Of a stretch of 20,347 nt of DNA, positions 4,691 to 19,753 are shown one piece after another; position 1 is the first letter of the stretch, and each line of letters begins with the position of its first letter. The DNA comes from a virus. Where the stretch lies: positions 1 to 20,347 of IMG/VR virus record IMGVR_UViG_3300021961_000805. The stretch is one strand, 5' to 3'. Under the pieces are notes generated by a model. That model saw nothing but the letters and a program-made list of their open reading frames with translations. It was not told where the DNA came from and ran no database searches. The position numbers and the translations under genes are program-made.

Positions 4691-4740
4691 AAAAACCTAA
4701 AGGTTTTTGCCCCCCAGCGCAGGCTGGGGGGTTTTTTTTT
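4691..4740 (+). terminator. Strong intrinsic terminator, preceded by a smaller hairpin
   Basis: The main hairpin has a perfect 9-bp stem CCCCCCAGC (4710-4718) / GCTGGGGGG (4723-4731), a GCAG loop, and nine T (4732-4740). Just before it a weaker hairpin AAAAACC / GGTTTTT (4691-4708) also ends in T. It starts about 10 bases after the stop of the preceding gene and should end that transcript before the glycosyltransferase. Confidence 0.95.
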
Positions 4741-4755
4741 GCTATAATTTCGGTG
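4740..4755 (+). promoter_or_regulatory. Extended -10 promoter for the second glycosyltransferase
   Basis: TGCTATAAT at 4740-4748 is a perfect TATAAT with the TG of an extended -10. No -35 match lies 16-18 bases upstream, where the terminator stem is. A start 7 bases after the -10 would be base 4755, the G of the in-frame GTG that begins the glycosyltransferase. That predicts a leaderless mRNA, a common type in Actinobacteria. The TG of the motif abuts the terminator T-tract. Confidence 0.7.
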
Positions 4756-5579
4756 TGCTTGAAAGAAACACTCAGAAAATCGAAATTAGTCATGAACAAA
4801 TAAATAGTTGGTATCCTTTGATTGCGGTTCCATGTTACGATCAACAGTTGACCGAGCCTTTCTATATGTCGTCCATAAAGATGGCAATGGGCTTCAAGGA
4901 TGCTGGATTGAAGTTTGCCATCAGTACTATTTCAGACTCTCTCATAAACCGTGCAAGAAACAATTTGATCGCTAAGTTCATGTCTAATCCAGACTTTACT
5001 CACATAATGTTTATAGATGCGGACATTGGTTTTGATTACGAAGATATCATAAAGATGCTATGGCACGAAAAAGATATTATGACTGGTTCGTATCCGATCA
5101 AGAGTATTCGCTGGGATAAAGTGGCTAAACTTGTAAATGAGAATACTCCCGTAGATCAGCTTATGGCTAAGAGTTTGAGGTATGTTGTAAATCCTGTAAA
5201 AGATCAAAGAGGTGTTGTCCAGGTTGATAATGGTGCTATCAATATTTATGATGCGGGTACTGGGTTTATGTTGATTAAGCGGGAAGTCATTGAGAAAATG
5301 ATTGAAGAATACCCGCACCTCAAGTTCAAGGATGATACTGGTTCTTTGTCAGAGGAAGAGAAGAAGTGGACTTATGCCTTCTTCAATTCTTATATTGATA
5401 CAGATGGCCGGTTTCTTTCAGAAGATTATGGCTTCTGTAGATACTGGCAAGATATGGGTGGCAGTGTTTGGGTTGATCCAAGTATTGATATGCTTCATAT
5501 TGGTAGAATGAAGTTTGAAGGTCGTATGATGGATTACCTTGAGACTATAGCTCAGCCTGAACCGACTGGTTCTGAATAA
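4755..5579 (+). CDS. Glycosyltransferase, GT-A fold, DxD type
   Basis: A 274-residue (from GTG 4755) family-2-like glycosyltransferase. The N-terminal nucleotide-binding strand is YPLIAVPCYD (20-29), followed by a helix with NRARNNLIAKF (65-75) and the metal-binding DxD in HIMFIDADIGFD (D88/D90). Later come TGFMLIKREVI (169-179) and SEDYGFCRYWQDMGG (222-236), which is placed like the usual catalytic ED segment. No membrane segment or signal is present, so it acts in the cytoplasm. The frame stays open upstream to a TTG at 4707, but that lies inside the terminator; GTG 4755 matches the expected transcript start and has no Shine-Dalgarno. The gene is alone, followed by the repeat-rich interval. 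Acceptor unknown; surface or DNA modification is plausible. Confidence 0.88.
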   Translation: MLERNTQKIEISHEQINSWYPLIAVPCYDQQLTEPFYMSSIKMAMGFKDAGLKFAISTISDSLINRARNNLIAKFMSNPDFTHIMFIDADIGFDYEDIIKMLWHEKDIMTGSYPIKSIRWDKVAKLVNENTPVDQLMAKSLRYVVNPVKDQRGVVQVDNGAINIYDAGTGFMLIKREVIEKMIEEYPHLKFKDDTGSLSEEEKKWTYAFFNSYIDTDGRFLSEDYGFCRYWQDMGGSVWVDPSIDMLHIGRMKFEGRMMDYLETIAQPEPTGSE

Positions 5580-12612: not shown

Positions 12613-12962
12613 TGCAAAATGAATTTGAAGAATTTCTAAGTAAAACAGAAAATGAGATGCCGGATGGTTTGATGGATGCTTCATCTTATGTAAATAAGAT
12701 TGAATCTATTGTCAAAGCGATGGCTTCCTTTATTGATCACGAATCAGATGTAAGCAGAATGTCTTTTATGATGAAGCTATTTAGCATATGTTCTGATAGC
12801 GATGAGGGTATTGTTGCTGTTCTTTACATTCTGAGTCTTATCATTACATCTCTTGATGATCTATCTGATGGGTCTTATCACTCTATGATTAGTTCATTCG
12901 AAGATGATATTATTCCTATTTTGAAGGAGAATCAATCTAGTGTCCCATACTGGAAGAACTGA
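12612..12962 (+). CDS. Hypothetical acidic helical protein
   Basis: A 116-residue protein starting in a TGATG overlap (ATG 12612). The sequence is helical and acidic: NEFEEFLSKTENEMPDGLM, YVNKIESIVKAMASFID, a hydrophobic helix (EGIVAVLYILSLIITSLDDL, about residues 66-85) and SMISSFEDDIIPILKENQ. The hydrophobic helix could be a membrane segment but is flanked by acidic residues and is more likely a buried bundle helix. It overlaps the WhiB gene by 23 bases, and AAGGAGA for WhiB lies within it. Function unknown. Confidence 0.72.
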   Translation: MQNEFEEFLSKTENEMPDGLMDASSYVNKIESIVKAMASFIDHESDVSRMSFMMKLFSICSDSDEGIVAVLYILSLIITSLDDLSDGSYHSMISSFEDDIIPILKENQSSVPYWKN

Positions 12963-13227
12963 TTGGGGTAAAAACGGTCTGTGTAAAAACTATGACACAG
13001 AGTTGTTTTATCCAGAACCAGGTCAATCTGAACAGAGTAAGAAGGCTTGTTCTATTTGTAAGAACTGTCCTGTTCGTATTGAATGCCTTACTGAAGCACT
13101 TGTGTCTCAGGAACAGTTTGGTGTTTGGGGTGGGTTCACTATTAGGCAACGTAGAAAAATTGCTAATGCCTTGAGCAAAAATCTAAACTTAGATTCAGTA
13201 AGGAGGTTTATTGAGAATGTCAACTAA
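12940..13227 (+). CDS. whiB-like: WhiB-family iron-sulfur transcription regulator
   Basis: A 95-residue WhiB-like protein starting at GTG 12940 with AAGGAGA upstream. The four cluster ligands are C15, C40, C43 and C49 in the pattern C...C-x2-C-x5-C (CKNCPVRIEC); C37 is an extra Cys. The G-V-W-G-G turn is at 61-65, followed by a basic DNA-binding helix (RQRRKIANALSK). These proteins hold a 4Fe-4S cluster and bind the housekeeping sigma factor region 4 to redirect transcription. Phage versions can block host WhiB action, as shown for mycobacteriophage TM4 WhiB. The family is actinobacterial, so this gene is the main host clue in the window. Confidence 0.95.
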   Translation: MSHTGRTDWGKNGLCKNYDTELFYPEPGQSEQSKKACSICKNCPVRIECLTEALVSQEQFGVWGGFTIRQRRKIANALSKNLNLDSVRRFIENVN

Positions 13228-14090: not shown

Positions 14091-14735
14091 ATGGAAGTTA
14101 CAGTAGATATTGACACAGACGAAATTGTAAGCGAGATTATGGATGATCTTGACTATCGTGATATTCGCGATAAGGTTCTTGAGCATCTTGATATTGCTGA
14201 TCTGGCTAATGATGTCATTGATAATATTAGTTACTCAGATATGGCAGAGTATGTAGTTCGGGAAATTGAGTACTCGGATCTTGCTTCTGAGGTCAGGGAT
14301 TACATTGAAATCGAGGATGAAGTTTACAATCTGCTTGAGCAATATGATCCTACTCGTAACTGTTCAACTGGTAACGCTTTTACTGAGGCAGTAAGGAAGG
14401 CTATTGCTCATTTGAATAGCGTACCTGTTGCTGATACGGTTGTTCCTGAAAATACTGAGCAGACAGTTGCTGTTCCTGATCAAGAAAGTGTTGAGGTTCC
14501 GGCTGTGGATTCTCCTAATGTTTCCGATTCCCTGGTTTCTCAGGAATTCGTTTTTACTAATGGCGAGAAGGCTAAGTTGAAGGATATCGGTATCACAATG
14601 ACTAAGCGTGTTGTGAACGAGTTGTTCAATCAGTATGTTCCTGATTTTGGAACAGATCCGCTTATGCGTATTCGGTTGGAAGCGAAGGCTTTTGACATTC
14701 TCAACGAGGAATTTGATAAGGAGTTCAATGTCTAA
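14091..14735 (+). CDS. Protein with six 13-residue repeats
   Basis: A 214-residue acidic protein with AGAAAGATAGAGAA before its ATG. Residues 7-84 form six consecutive units of exactly 13 residues, each roughly [IL]-[DE]-[YI]-x-D-[LI]-[AR]-x-x-V-x-[DE]-x. Examples are LDYRDIRDKVLEH, LDIADLANDVIDN and IEYSDLASEVRDY. After this comes a Pro/Val/Glu/Thr-rich linker (about 105-150: VADTVVPENTEQTVAVP) and a small folded C-terminal domain (residues 152-214: FVFTNGEKAKLKDIG, then helices MTKRVVNELFNQYV and MRIRLEAKAFDIL). No enzyme motif is visible. It overlaps the following ATPase gene by eight bases, so the two are probably made together. Confidence 0.85.
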   Translation: MEVTVDIDTDEIVSEIMDDLDYRDIRDKVLEHLDIADLANDVIDNISYSDMAEYVVREIEYSDLASEVRDYIEIEDEVYNLLEQYDPTRNCSTGNAFTEAVRKAIAHLNSVPVADTVVPENTEQTVAVPDQESVEVPAVDSPNVSDSLVSQEFVFTNGEKAKLKDIGITMTKRVVNELFNQYVPDFGTDPLMRIRLEAKAFDILNEEFDKEFNV

Positions 14736-16368
14736 GTACATCAAAATTACAAACTATCTGGGGTCAGACGAGATTGTTTCTCGTCTGGCTCTAGAAAAGC
14801 TTGGTCTCTCAACTAAGAGAAACGATGCTGAAACCATTGGTCAGTTTGGTTCAGGTATCAAGTTTGCTCCTATTGCGGCTTTGCGTAATGGATGGGAGTG
14901 GTGGTTTACTGGTCGTGATCACAAAGGACCATACTTCATGCAATACATTTCTCGTGAAGAGGATGGTATTGATTGCATTTGGTATGACTATGGTGATGAA
15001 GTAAAGCCATCTTCTTTCACTGTTGGTGCCGGTGAACTTTCTTGGACTGATCCGTTTCAGATTATTCGTGAGGCAATCTCTAATGCAATGGATGGAGCTA
15101 AACTGTCCGATAGCAGTTGGGACTTCTCTTTTGTTGATGAGGTTGATTACCGTGAGGGGCAGTTCAATGTTTACATTACGGCTGCTCCTGAACTTGTAGA
15201 TATCCTCAACAATTACGATAAGTATTTTGCTGATGGAACAGAGCGTATCAACAGTTTCGGTAATTATGAGATGTTGAAGAAAGCTGGTGACAAGTTCAGG
15301 GTATTCTGTCACAACGTCCTTGTAAGTGAGAAAGAAACTGAGTCAATGTTTGATTACAACTTTGACTCGATCTCTTTGAACGAGGAAAGAACAGTCAAGA
15401 ATGAATATGAACTGACTTCTTCTGTTGCTCGGACTGTTGCTAATGCTCCGGCTAAAGTCATTCCTAGCATCATCAAAAATGCTCTAAACATTACTATGTT
15501 TGAGTGGAATTCTTTGACTGCTCCTGCGTATAAGTATCAGCATTTTGTTGAGGATTGGTTTGCCATCTTCAAAGAGATGTACGGTGAAAATGCTGTTCTT
15601 GTAAAGAATGATGCTTATGCCCAGGTTGTTGCTAAGGCTTTGAAGTACCGAGATAGGACTGCTGTATTTGTAAATACTGATTTCGGTGGTTCTCTGCTTG
15701 AAGCTGCTGGTATTCCTACCGCTGAGAGTGTCATTGGTGAAGAGGCTAATTTTCAGATTGATGATGATATCGAAGATTATTCGACTCTTATGACTGCGAT
15801 TTCTATTGCAACTATTGCTGAGCCTAAACTGTCTGATTATGTTGATCATATGGGTGTTCTTGAAGGTGATGCTGCAAGAGATTGTCGTGGCATGACTATC
15901 AATATCAACAATGACAAGCCAGTCAGAATTCTTATTTCTGAGAATCATTTGCAGACTGGATCTGTTAGCGACATTGTTGCTACTTTGATTCATGAGTATG
16001 ATCATGCGTCAAGCGGTATCTTTGATGGTTTTTCCGATGAAGGCAAGTTGTTTAGGAATCTTGCCGACGAGAGAATCGGGAAAATGATTATGGAAAATTA
16101 CAAGCCTAATCCGTTCTTTATTCAGGATGGTGTGGTATGCTTCAAAGCATCTGATATGGCAATGATTGGTGATGGCCTTTATGCCACTACTGAGCATGTC
16201 AGAATGCTTGATTGTTTTCTGATGAAAGTGGGCCGGTTTGTTTTGAAGTTGACTGGTGATGCTATTGAGGAAAACTTTGGTCATGAGCATCAACCTCACT
16301 TTGCTCAGGATGCTACGGTAATTTGTTATCCAACGATGATTAATGTAGAAAGTGTTGAGATTGTATAG
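14728..16368 (+). CDS. GHKL-like ATPase with C-terminal HExxH motif (RIIA-like?)
   Basis: A 546-residue protein starting at ATG 14728 after AAGGAG (14718-14723). Residues 37-46 (IGQFGSGIKF) look like a glycine-rich ATP-binding loop. Residues 114-122 (REAISNAMD, with E115, N119, D122) match the E-x3-N-x2-D N-box of GHKL ATPases. A strand GDKFRVFCHNVLV (187-199) fits their ATP-side sheet. Near the C-terminus, LIHEYDHASSG (421-430) is an HExxH zinc-peptidase motif (H422, E423, H426), with E438 or E448 as possible third ligand. I recall phage proteins of this build annotated as ATP-binding or RIIA-like, but cannot check. It is the largest unexplained protein here, and a short ORF follows in its 3' overlap. 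Confidence 0.75.
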   Translation: MSKYIKITNYLGSDEIVSRLALEKLGLSTKRNDAETIGQFGSGIKFAPIAALRNGWEWWFTGRDHKGPYFMQYISREEDGIDCIWYDYGDEVKPSSFTVGAGELSWTDPFQIIREAISNAMDGAKLSDSSWDFSFVDEVDYREGQFNVYITAAPELVDILNNYDKYFADGTERINSFGNYEMLKKAGDKFRVFCHNVLVSEKETESMFDYNFDSISLNEERTVKNEYELTSSVARTVANAPAKVIPSIIKNALNITMFEWNSLTAPAYKYQHFVEDWFAIFKEMYGENAVLVKNDAYAQVVAKALKYRDRTAVFVNTDFGGSLLEAAGIPTAESVIGEEANFQIDDDIEDYSTLMTAISIATIAEPKLSDYVDHMGVLEGDAARDCRGMTININNDKPVRILISENHLQTGSVSDIVATLIHEYDHASSGIFDGFSDEGKLFRNLADERIGKMIMENYKPNPFFIQDGVVCFKASDMAMIGDGLYATTEHVRMLDCFLMKVGRFVLKLTGDAIEENFGHEHQPHFAQDATVICYPTMINVESVEIV

Positions 16369-16486
16369 ACTAATCTACCTACAGATTATTCTGATTCTTT
16401 CGATCATCTCTATTTCTATGATTCCATTGTTCATATTCCTATTGCTAATCTATGCAATAGGTATGCTGATTGCGGTGCTAATCTAA
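16352..16486 (+). CDS. Small membrane peptide (44 aa), holin-sized
   Basis: The frame from GTG 16352 (or TTG 16355/16361) to TAA 16484-16486 encodes 44 residues of which nearly all after the first six are hydrophobic: a basic-tipped start (VLRLYRLIY) and then LQIILILSIISISMIPLF and IFLLLIYAIGMLIAVLI, enough for one long or two short membrane helices around a Pro. It fills the only gap between two genes and its stop overlaps the next ATG as TAATG, the coupling used all through this operon. Ribosome site is weak (AGAAAG), with eight bases to TTG 16361. It is too short for most holins but could be a holin, antiholin or membrane-targeting peptide. Confidence 0.65.
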   Translation: MLRLYRLIYLQIILILSIISISMIPLFIFLLLIYAIGMLIAVLI

Positions 16487-16803
16487 TGCCTAAATACAAC
16501 AAATACTTCGTAATTGAATACAGACTACCTATCCAGGTGGATGATGTATCTTCAATTCCTGAAGCTGTCTCAAGAGCTAAAAGGATTGTTGAGAATAGGT
16601 TTGGATTTGCTCCAGACAATTGGAATGCTAGAGTGTTTGAATATGATCCAGAGGCTGATGTTGTTGGTCATGTAAAAGAATACTTTTACAATCCACATTC
16701 AGCTTCGTTCAGAGAGATTACAAAGAATTTAGAGTATCACAAAGACATGGTTGAAAAAGGTATTGACCCGAGTAAAATTGAAGGAGATGAAGATGCTAGT
16801 TGA
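16486..16803 (+). CDS. Hypothetical protein
   Basis: A 105-residue protein starting in a TAATG overlap with the small membrane ORF. It begins with a strand (KYFVIEYRLPIQV), then a helix (SIPEAVSRAKRIVENRF), a second strand set (NARVFEYDPEADVVGHVKEYFY) and a C-terminal charged helix (REITKNLEYHKDMVEKG). A small ferredoxin-like beta-alpha-beta fold is plausible. It has no Cys and no membrane segment. It overlaps the next gene by 11 bases, and the next ribosome site GAAGGAG lies inside it. Family not recognised. Confidence 0.75.
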   Translation: MPKYNKYFVIEYRLPIQVDDVSSIPEAVSRAKRIVENRFGFAPDNWNARVFEYDPEADVVGHVKEYFYNPHSASFREITKNLEYHKDMVEKGIDPSKIEGDEDAS

Positions 16804-17682: not shown

Positions 17683-17755
17683 ACCCCAGTAGCCCAATGG
17701 CAGAGGCAGAAGACTTAAAATCTTTCAAGTATGGGTTCGAGTCCCATCTGGGGTA
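17683..17755 (+). tRNA. tRNA-Leu (anticodon TAA), short variable loop
   Basis: The cloverleaf is complete: acceptor ACCCCAG (17683-17689) / CTGGGGT (17748-17754), T8-A9, D arm, anticodon stem GAAGA / TCTTT with one G-T pair and loop CTTAAAA, and T arm ATGGG-TTCGAGT-CCCAT. The anticodon TAA reads UUA (Leu). The variable loop is about five bases, unlike the long arm of bacterial Leu tRNAs. CCA is not encoded. The next gene starts four bases after the end. Confidence 0.9.
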
Positions 17756-17758
17756 CTT

Positions 17759-18330: not shown

Positions 18331-18409
18331 CCCTGTCAGGTTCACCCGGTAGGTGAACTGTGTCTTATAAACACAGTCTAAACAAGTGGTTCAACTCCAC
18401 TGACAGGGA
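18331..18409 (+). tRNA. tRNA-Ile-like gene (anticodon TAT), irregular
   Basis: Acceptor CCCTGTC (18331-18337) pairs perfectly with GACAGGG (18402-18408), discriminator A. T arm AGTGG-TTCAACT-CCACT and anticodon arm TGTGT-CTTATAA-ACACA are good; anticodon TAT would read AUA. Odd points: A instead of T at position 8, a D arm that can pair for up to seven bases (GTTCACC / GGTGAAC), no clear base 26, and a nine-base variable loop. A run of T follows (ACTTTTTT). Either a divergent tRNA or a tRNA-like RNA. Confidence 0.65.
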
Positions 18410-18435
18410 CTTTTTTATTATAAGGAGGAAGTACC

Positions 18436-19503: not shown

Positions 19504-19576
19504 GCCCTTATAGCTCAATGGATAGAGCAAATGACTTCTAATCATTAGGTTGTAGGTTCGAGTCCTACTAAGGGCG
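19504..19576 (+). tRNA. tRNA-Arg (anticodon TCT)
   Basis: A regular 73-base cloverleaf: acceptor GCCCTTA (19504-19510) / TAAGGGC (19569-19575), T8-A9, D arm GCTC...GAGC, anticodon stem AATGA / TCATT with loop CTTCTAA, T arm GTAGG-TTCGAGT-CCTAC, discriminator G. The anticodon TCT reads AGA, an Arg codon rare in most actinobacterial genomes. CCA is not encoded. Confidence 0.96.
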
Positions 19577-19753
19577 CTGAGTGGGCTAAGCATAAACTCC
19601 TTTCTTGTGTTAAGGGAAACCTGCAAACAATTGTTTTTTTTGTTGGTTGTTTTTTGGGCAATTGTTTGTTAAAGATGTTTTGCATGGTTTTGCATCCAAG
19701 GTTTTCCGCCCACTCTATTTCGTATAAATACAAGCAAGCAACTGGAGGTTGCA
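19577..19753 (+). other. Non-coding interval with nested inverted repeats
   Basis: No gene is visible here. The outer repeat GAGTGGGC (19579-19586) / GCCCACTC (19708-19715) encloses the inner perfect 10-bp repeat CAAACAATTG (19624-19633) / CAATTGTTTG (19659-19668), whose 25-base loop is nearly all T and G. The direct repeat TTTTGCAT occurs twice near 19677-19695. TATAAA at 19723-19728, then GGAGG ahead of the 19754 ATG, could give a promoter for the paralog pair, although no -35 matches. The nesting suggests a folded RNA directly after tRNA-Arg, or a paired protein site. Confidence 0.6.

Follow-up and report, generated by a model that had tools for sequence, protein, structure and literature searches.

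A circularly permuted GHKL-type ATPase domain joined to a zincin-like domain in a phage protein family

The ATP-binding domains of GHKL proteins ordinarily follow a single order: the N-box helix comes first, followed by the G1 strand, the ATP lid and the G2 loop. Hsp90 and HtpG have this order, with an Asp in G1, a C-terminal dimerization domain of their own and no protease; the phage T4 protein RIIA likewise has the ordinary order and the canonical G1 Asp, is paired with rIIB and carries another kind of C-terminal part. Wss1, SPRTN and the minigluzincins, such as selecase and abylysin, share a zincin-like fold with an HExxH helix; free minigluzincins such as selecase are regulated by self-association. 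In a survey of jumbo phages RIIA appears as a GHKL ATPase whose C-terminal domain varies (PMC7824862). The protein that we describe here is assembled from these known kinds of building block, a GHKL ATPase and a zincin; a permuted GHKL/Bergerat order, and its fusion to a zincin, were not found in the open-access papers that we searched and are new to that literature.

The window, i.e. the whole stretch of DNA analyzed, is a virus record of 20,347 bases. An earlier note on it had singled out one gene (14728..16368, + strand, as are all features below whose coordinates are written with two dots) as a GHKL-like ATPase with reversed motif order joined to an HExxH peptidase motif. Going by translation, full-length homologs and an AlphaFold2 model, this gene codes for a 546-aa protein combining a permuted GHKL ATPase domain, a middle domain resembling that of Hsp90, a zincin-like domain and a small C-terminal β domain. 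Its ATG lies at 14728 and its stop codon at 16366-16368; a longer frame opens at 14635, and the ATG at 14728 is preferred because the homologs begin there. Translation places the three motifs where the earlier note had them: the G2 glycine loop of the ATP lid, IGQFGSGIKF (residues 37-46; 14836..14865), the N-box REAISNAMD (residues 114-122; 15067..15093) and HEYDH (residues 422-426; 15991..16005). In a lone sequence such motifs would be weak evidence, since shuffled copies yield HExxH at 1.5%, GxxGxG at 14% and E-x3-N-x2-D at 17%. What decides the matter is conservation in an alignment of 144 sequences, from which all our conservation counts are taken and which joins a first set of 67 to a second, short set of 77. 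G38, G41 and G43 of the loop and R114, E115, N119 and D122 of the N-box are invariant; by profile the loop aligns with IGQFGVG of HtpG and IGGFGLG of RIIA, and the N-box with those of the same two proteins. Hsp90/HtpG share with the window protein the IGQFGxG loop, a RELISNAxD-like N-box and the fold match detailed below, and their middle-domain Arg loop resembles one in this protein.

In the window protein the order along the chain is G1-G2-N-box, with the N-box about 105 residues after the starting G1 strand. Profile comparison in the native order gave half-domain matches only, and this prompted a rotation test, in which the 144-member profile was compared with RIIA (9 sequences), HtpG (6) and PHROG 6077 (6). 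Against RIIA the score rises from 35.3 in the native order (E = 1.7e-4) to 69.6-70.9 in the N-box-first order (E = 4e-10), wherever the cut is made from residue 50 to residue 110; against HtpG it rises from 32.4 to 50.6 (E = 6e-7), and against PHROG 6077 from 154 to 207 (E = 1.3e-28), with the maximum at a cut at residue 100. Rotated in this way, the profile aligns with PHROG 6077 without a break up to residue 327. The test is specific, because rotating RIIA itself, with cuts inside the motif region, lowers its score to HtpG from 82 to 45-68; hhalign comparisons with single template sequences were too weak. Given that rotation raises the scores to RIIA, HtpG and PHROG 6077 alike, the rearrangement is a real circular permutation within the GHKL/Bergerat domain. 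The relocated segment, residues 100-141 (15025..15150; best cut at residue 100 against PHROG 6077, plateau from 50 to 110 against RIIA), comprises the conserved W106, the N-box helix and the next strand; the permutation does not extend beyond the ATP-binding subdomain, since the last strand and the middle domain keep their place. The reversed motif order is thereby supported by the rotation test, and also by Hsp90, GyrB, MORC2 and TopoVI-B, whose fold matches all start from residue 1 of the model. The profile comparison to RIIA that the earlier note had called for finds a distant relative once the profile is rotated; the PHROG of RIIA itself, phrog_612, weakly matches four of 53 members (best E = 0.0014), the window protein not being among them.

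PHROG 6077, with examples in Erwinia phage pEp_SNUABM_01 (gene 197) and Edwardsiella phage IW-1 (ORF-15), is homologous to the window protein across the ATPase and middle domains (residues 1-327); both have a Trp ahead of the N-box, an LDRDR/LNEER loop and a residue other than Asp at G1. It differs in being N-box-first, in its length of 307-408 aa and in the absence of HExxH or EExxH from all six members read. The order can be read directly from its sequences: HWGWWQGVREILQNAVD ... IRIVSRGG ... LLLGKTTKADDDSTIGKFGEGMK. PHROG 6077 was considered as another permuted group and ruled out, as the six members show the ordinary order; one of the six is annotated as an RIIA lysis inhibitor and another as sacsin-like. 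By alignment its G1 position is Ser, Thr or Asn. Because this unpermuted group also lacks the G1 Asp, the loss of that residue may, on these alignments, be older than the permutation.

In the window protein the G1 strand and motif read YIKITNYLG (residues 4-12; 14737..14763), and position 9 is Asn in 141 of the 144 sequences and Thr in one, the other two being truncated. In structural alignments N9, if these are taken as ungapped, opposes residue 79 of yeast Hsc82, 73 of E. coli GyrB, 79 of M. tuberculosis GyrB, 88 of HSP90-beta, 149 of GRP94 and 158 of human TRAP1, each of which we take to be the adenine-binding Asp; the profile alignment of the window protein puts the G1 Asp one column off N9. 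Going by the structural alignments, N9 probably replaces the adenine-binding Asp of GHKL proteins. In Hsp90 the corresponding exchange, D79N, abolishes ATP binding. As the family lacks the canonical G1 motif, DxGxG with the adenine-binding Asp, the window protein is a divergent GHKL relative and not a canonical member.

The AlphaFold2 model of the window protein, built with 53 aligned relatives, has a pLDDT of 90.6 and a pTM of 0.73. Its top Foldseek matches in the PDB are Hsp90 chains (Hsc82, E = 1.6e-8, with a low global TM-score), followed by minigluzincins; rows for AriA and fluorescent proteins were set aside as noise. With VIA-align, residues 1 to about 340 match TRAP1, Hsp90, MORC2, GyrB and TopoVI-B at Z 5-7; the tool cautions on Z under 8, and the GHKL assignment rests mainly on the sequence profiles. 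A fold with no Bergerat ATP site, which the earlier note had named as fatal to its reading, is not what these matches indicate. A putative structural protein of Sulfolobales Beppu filamentous phage 1 (BFVD A0A3Q8Q6V3) also matches the model (E = 9e-9), and this archaeal virus Hsp90-like protein may, on predicted structure, be related to the window family. The last strand of the ATPase, a middle/transducer domain resembling that of Hsp90 and a linker domain occupy residues 142-345 (15151..15762): this region aligns to PHROG 6077 (E = 2.5e-13), and residues 1-337 of the model align to the N-terminal and middle domains of TRAP1; the profile match of residues 142-345 to HtpG is not significant. 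E219 and R221 are invariant in the 144 sequences, and the L217-N-E-E-R221 loop resembles in sequence the LNxSRE loop of Hsp90 with its catalytic Arg. In RIIA, too, a region carrying an S-R-E loop comes after the GHKL domain.

The domain that follows, residues 346-459 (15763..16104), models as zincin-like, resembling the minigluzincins and Wss1/SPRTN. VIA-align matches it to SPRTN (6mdx; Z 8.1 over 97 residues, 3.7 Å), selecase, jannalysin, Wss1, BlaR1 and HtpX, and the model of the M6 phage protein ORF071 (pLDDT 90.6), which has EExxH, returns the same two groups of fold matches as the window protein. Single-protein searches of Pfam, NCBIfam, PHROG and the PDB gave weak or unnamed matches only (one to LicM2 at E = 0.68 was discarded as chance): the SprT-like Pfam score of the window protein is 13.1 bits, below the gathering threshold of 25.6, and the best Pfam E-values among the members are 0.0013 for SprT-like and 0.00076 for WLM. 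With the family profile Wss1 is the only family found among PDB sequences, at a weak E of 0.037, aligned over residues 351-451. HEYDH lies within helix 413-429 of the model, the active-site helix of a zincin by the SPRTN and Wss1 matches. Its placement in an unconserved, non-zincin helix, the other objection anticipated in the earlier note, is at odds with this zincin-like model and with the conservation of E423 in 144/144 and of H426 in 143/144. The His that serves Wss1 as third ligand is absent at the aligned position; one position further on, D433 (16024..16026; 143/144) is a candidate, completing an HExxH-x6-D pattern, and is probably the third metal ligand, judging by its conservation. 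The family thus differs from Wss1, SPRTN and the minigluzincins in this ligand, in the fusion to an ATPase and in having EExxH in half of its members.

This last difference divides the family. In the first set, 63 of 67 sequences have His at position 422, the other four being distant members with Glu, or in one case Lys; in the short set all 77 have Glu there. On a tree of the ATPase and middle part, HExxH and EExxH clades are split by one change (SH-aLRT 100), the former including the window protein and the latter phages YuA and M6. A further loss on the tree is KExxL, in a huge-phage relative (LR756500.1, 2956-4215) whose metal motif reads KEQEL and which is the sole member read that has lost both His. 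All of the EExxH clade keeps this motif unchanged, also at loci in Bacteroidetes genomes, and such constancy speaks for an altered site rather than a decaying one. PHROG 8203 (YuA gp29/M6 ORF071) belongs to the same family and has the same permuted order, but differs in having EExxH for HExxH, in its length of about 390 aa and in lacking the C-terminal β domain. The latter (residues 460-546; 16105..16365) is seen in the AlphaFold2 model and is found in only part of the HExxH clade, shorter relatives lacking it.

Pattern-limited scans of IMG/VR with two queries confirmed 213 and 376 relatives, in overlapping sets. Members in cultured phages are those of Pseudomonas phages YuA (gp29), M6 (ORF071), LKO4, AN14 and MP1412, of Bordetella phages CN1, CN2, FP1 and MW2, and of Synechococcus, Stenotrophomonas and Bradyrhizobium phages; they are mostly annotated as hypothetical and sometimes as ‘HATPase’ or ‘metallopeptidase’. 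A scan of 84,980 species genomes, pattern-limited as well, found just 23 loci, some of them near-identical to M6 and possibly contamination; hence, this is a phage family. Short-clade genes lie close to genes for polymerase, primase, exonuclease and ERF/YqaJ, in replication and recombination modules, and that of YuA sits in the replication region, well ahead of the terminase and portal genes. Their neighbors are otherwise scattered, and we found no partner gene common to both clades; a small gene adjacent to YuA gp29, checked as a possible counterpart of a window neighbor, proved unrelated.

Around the window gene a block of neighbors is conserved across 66 non-identical loci: a WhiB-like regulator upstream in 56 (12940..13227; Pfam WhiB, E = 2.3e-21), a 124-aa gene in 52, a 214-aa gene upstream in 35, mostly immediately adjoining, and a 105-aa gene of no assigned function (16486..16803) downstream in 60. 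The last is the most constant neighbor of the window protein's clade and nearly always the next gene. The WhiB-like regulator suggests an actinobacterial host. The 214-aa gene (14091..14735) overlaps the start of the ATPase-zincin gene, its stop sharing 8 bp with the start codon region of the latter; its product is very acidic (pI 4.05), counting 28 D/E and 5 K/R over its first 85 residues, and carries loose I-E-x-S-D-L-A-like repeats. It may be a partner or client of the ATPase, or a DNA mimic. Downstream of the ATPase-zincin gene lie three tRNA genes: Leu-TAA (17683-17756), Ile-TAT (18331-18410) and Arg-TCT (19504-19577); by eye only, glycosyltransferase-like ORFs (520-1587 and 4707-5579) flank the terminase genes.

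We propose, with a probability of roughly one half, that the protein is a nucleotide-operated clamp with an attached metalloprotease domain, used early in infection. Much as in Hsp90 or MutL, a dimer would close on nucleotide binding, through the ATPase and middle domains; the closed state would present or unlock the protease domain, which would cut the client that the clamp holds (in all likelihood a host or defense protein), and hydrolysis would reset the clamp. By the permutation the N-box helix comes to lie immediately ahead of the last strand and middle domain, and this may alter how hydrolysis is coupled to handling of the client. Expression is probably early, because the gene is surrounded by small genes for regulation and DNA metabolism. 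The proposal is supported by the invariance of E115, N119, D122, G38, G41, G43 and R221, by the homology to RIIA, HtpG and PHROG 6077 restored on rotation, by the two groups of fold matches (GHKL-type for residues 1 to about 340, zincin for 346-459) repeated for M6 ORF071, by the near-invariant E423, H426 and D433 with the Wss1 profile match, and by the proximity of short-clade genes to replication and recombination genes. Against it stand the probable placement of N9 at the adenine-Asp position, given the effect of D79N in Hsp90, and GHKL Z-scores under the tool's caution level, which the zincin match at 8.1 exceeds. The EExxH clade without the first His, and the KExxL relative, further imply that standard protease chemistry is not essential in all members.

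The earlier note had suggested a weapon against host or rival-phage proteins, akin to RIIA: this is plausible but speculative. RIIA is a distant relative by profile, the matches to phrog_612 are few and weak, and no rIIB-like gene was recognized among the neighbors scanned. An RIIA-like factor, in which the clamp itself protects from exclusion or superinfection while the zincin-like domain serves as a metal-stabilized binding or scaffold module and not as a protease, is unlikely. PHROG 6077, one member of which is annotated as an RIIA lysis inhibitor, has the same ATPase and middle domains without a protease, the rotated profile matches T4 RIIA, and the EExxH clade retains the domain without a classical HExxH; however, E423, H426 and D433 are retained almost throughout the 144 sequences, beyond what a scaffold needs, and that no rIIB homolog was recognized among the neighbors scanned weighs against this reading as well.

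The clamp might instead close round DNA, like MutL or MORC, with the Wss1/SPRTN-like domain stripping bound or crosslinked proteins such as defense proteins or covalent adducts. The nearest protease folds do include the crosslink proteases SPRTN and Wss1, the ATPase part aligns to MORC2, TopoVI-B and GyrB as well, and short-clade genes lie in replication and recombination modules. Yet DNA repair is not specifically indicated by the fold, because minigluzincins such as selecase match about equally, and the window protein is acidic (computed pI 4.6) with no DNA-binding motif found in it; we regard this as unlikely, slightly more so than the RIIA-like reading. A chaperone-protease folding or processing structural proteins during virion assembly would fit the Hsp90-like architecture and the putative archaeal virus structural protein among the fold matches, but is very improbable: the window neighbors are WhiB, HNH and small genes without known function, with no head or tail genes, and the YuA gene lies in the replication region. 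That the motifs arose by chance in a protein of some unrelated fold, each alone occurring in 1.5-17% of shuffled sequences, is refuted by their invariance in 144 sequences, the high-confidence models and the independent profile matches, leaving it a negligible chance. Beyond the clamp-and-protease proposal itself, we tentatively entertain, as a rather unlikely extension, a new class of nucleotide-gated phage protease: a permuted GHKL lineage without the adenine Asp, using another nucleotide or a tuned site, that would drive a protease with one HExxH/EExxH switch.

The unpermuted sister group PHROG 6077 allows a side-by-side comparison in which the mechanical effect of the permutation is testable, and the clean HExxH/EExxH split is a natural experiment on the need for catalysis. 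The zincin-like fusion points to a protease gated by nucleotide in hundreds of phages, among them the laboratory phages YuA and M6, for a gene that has been without a known function.
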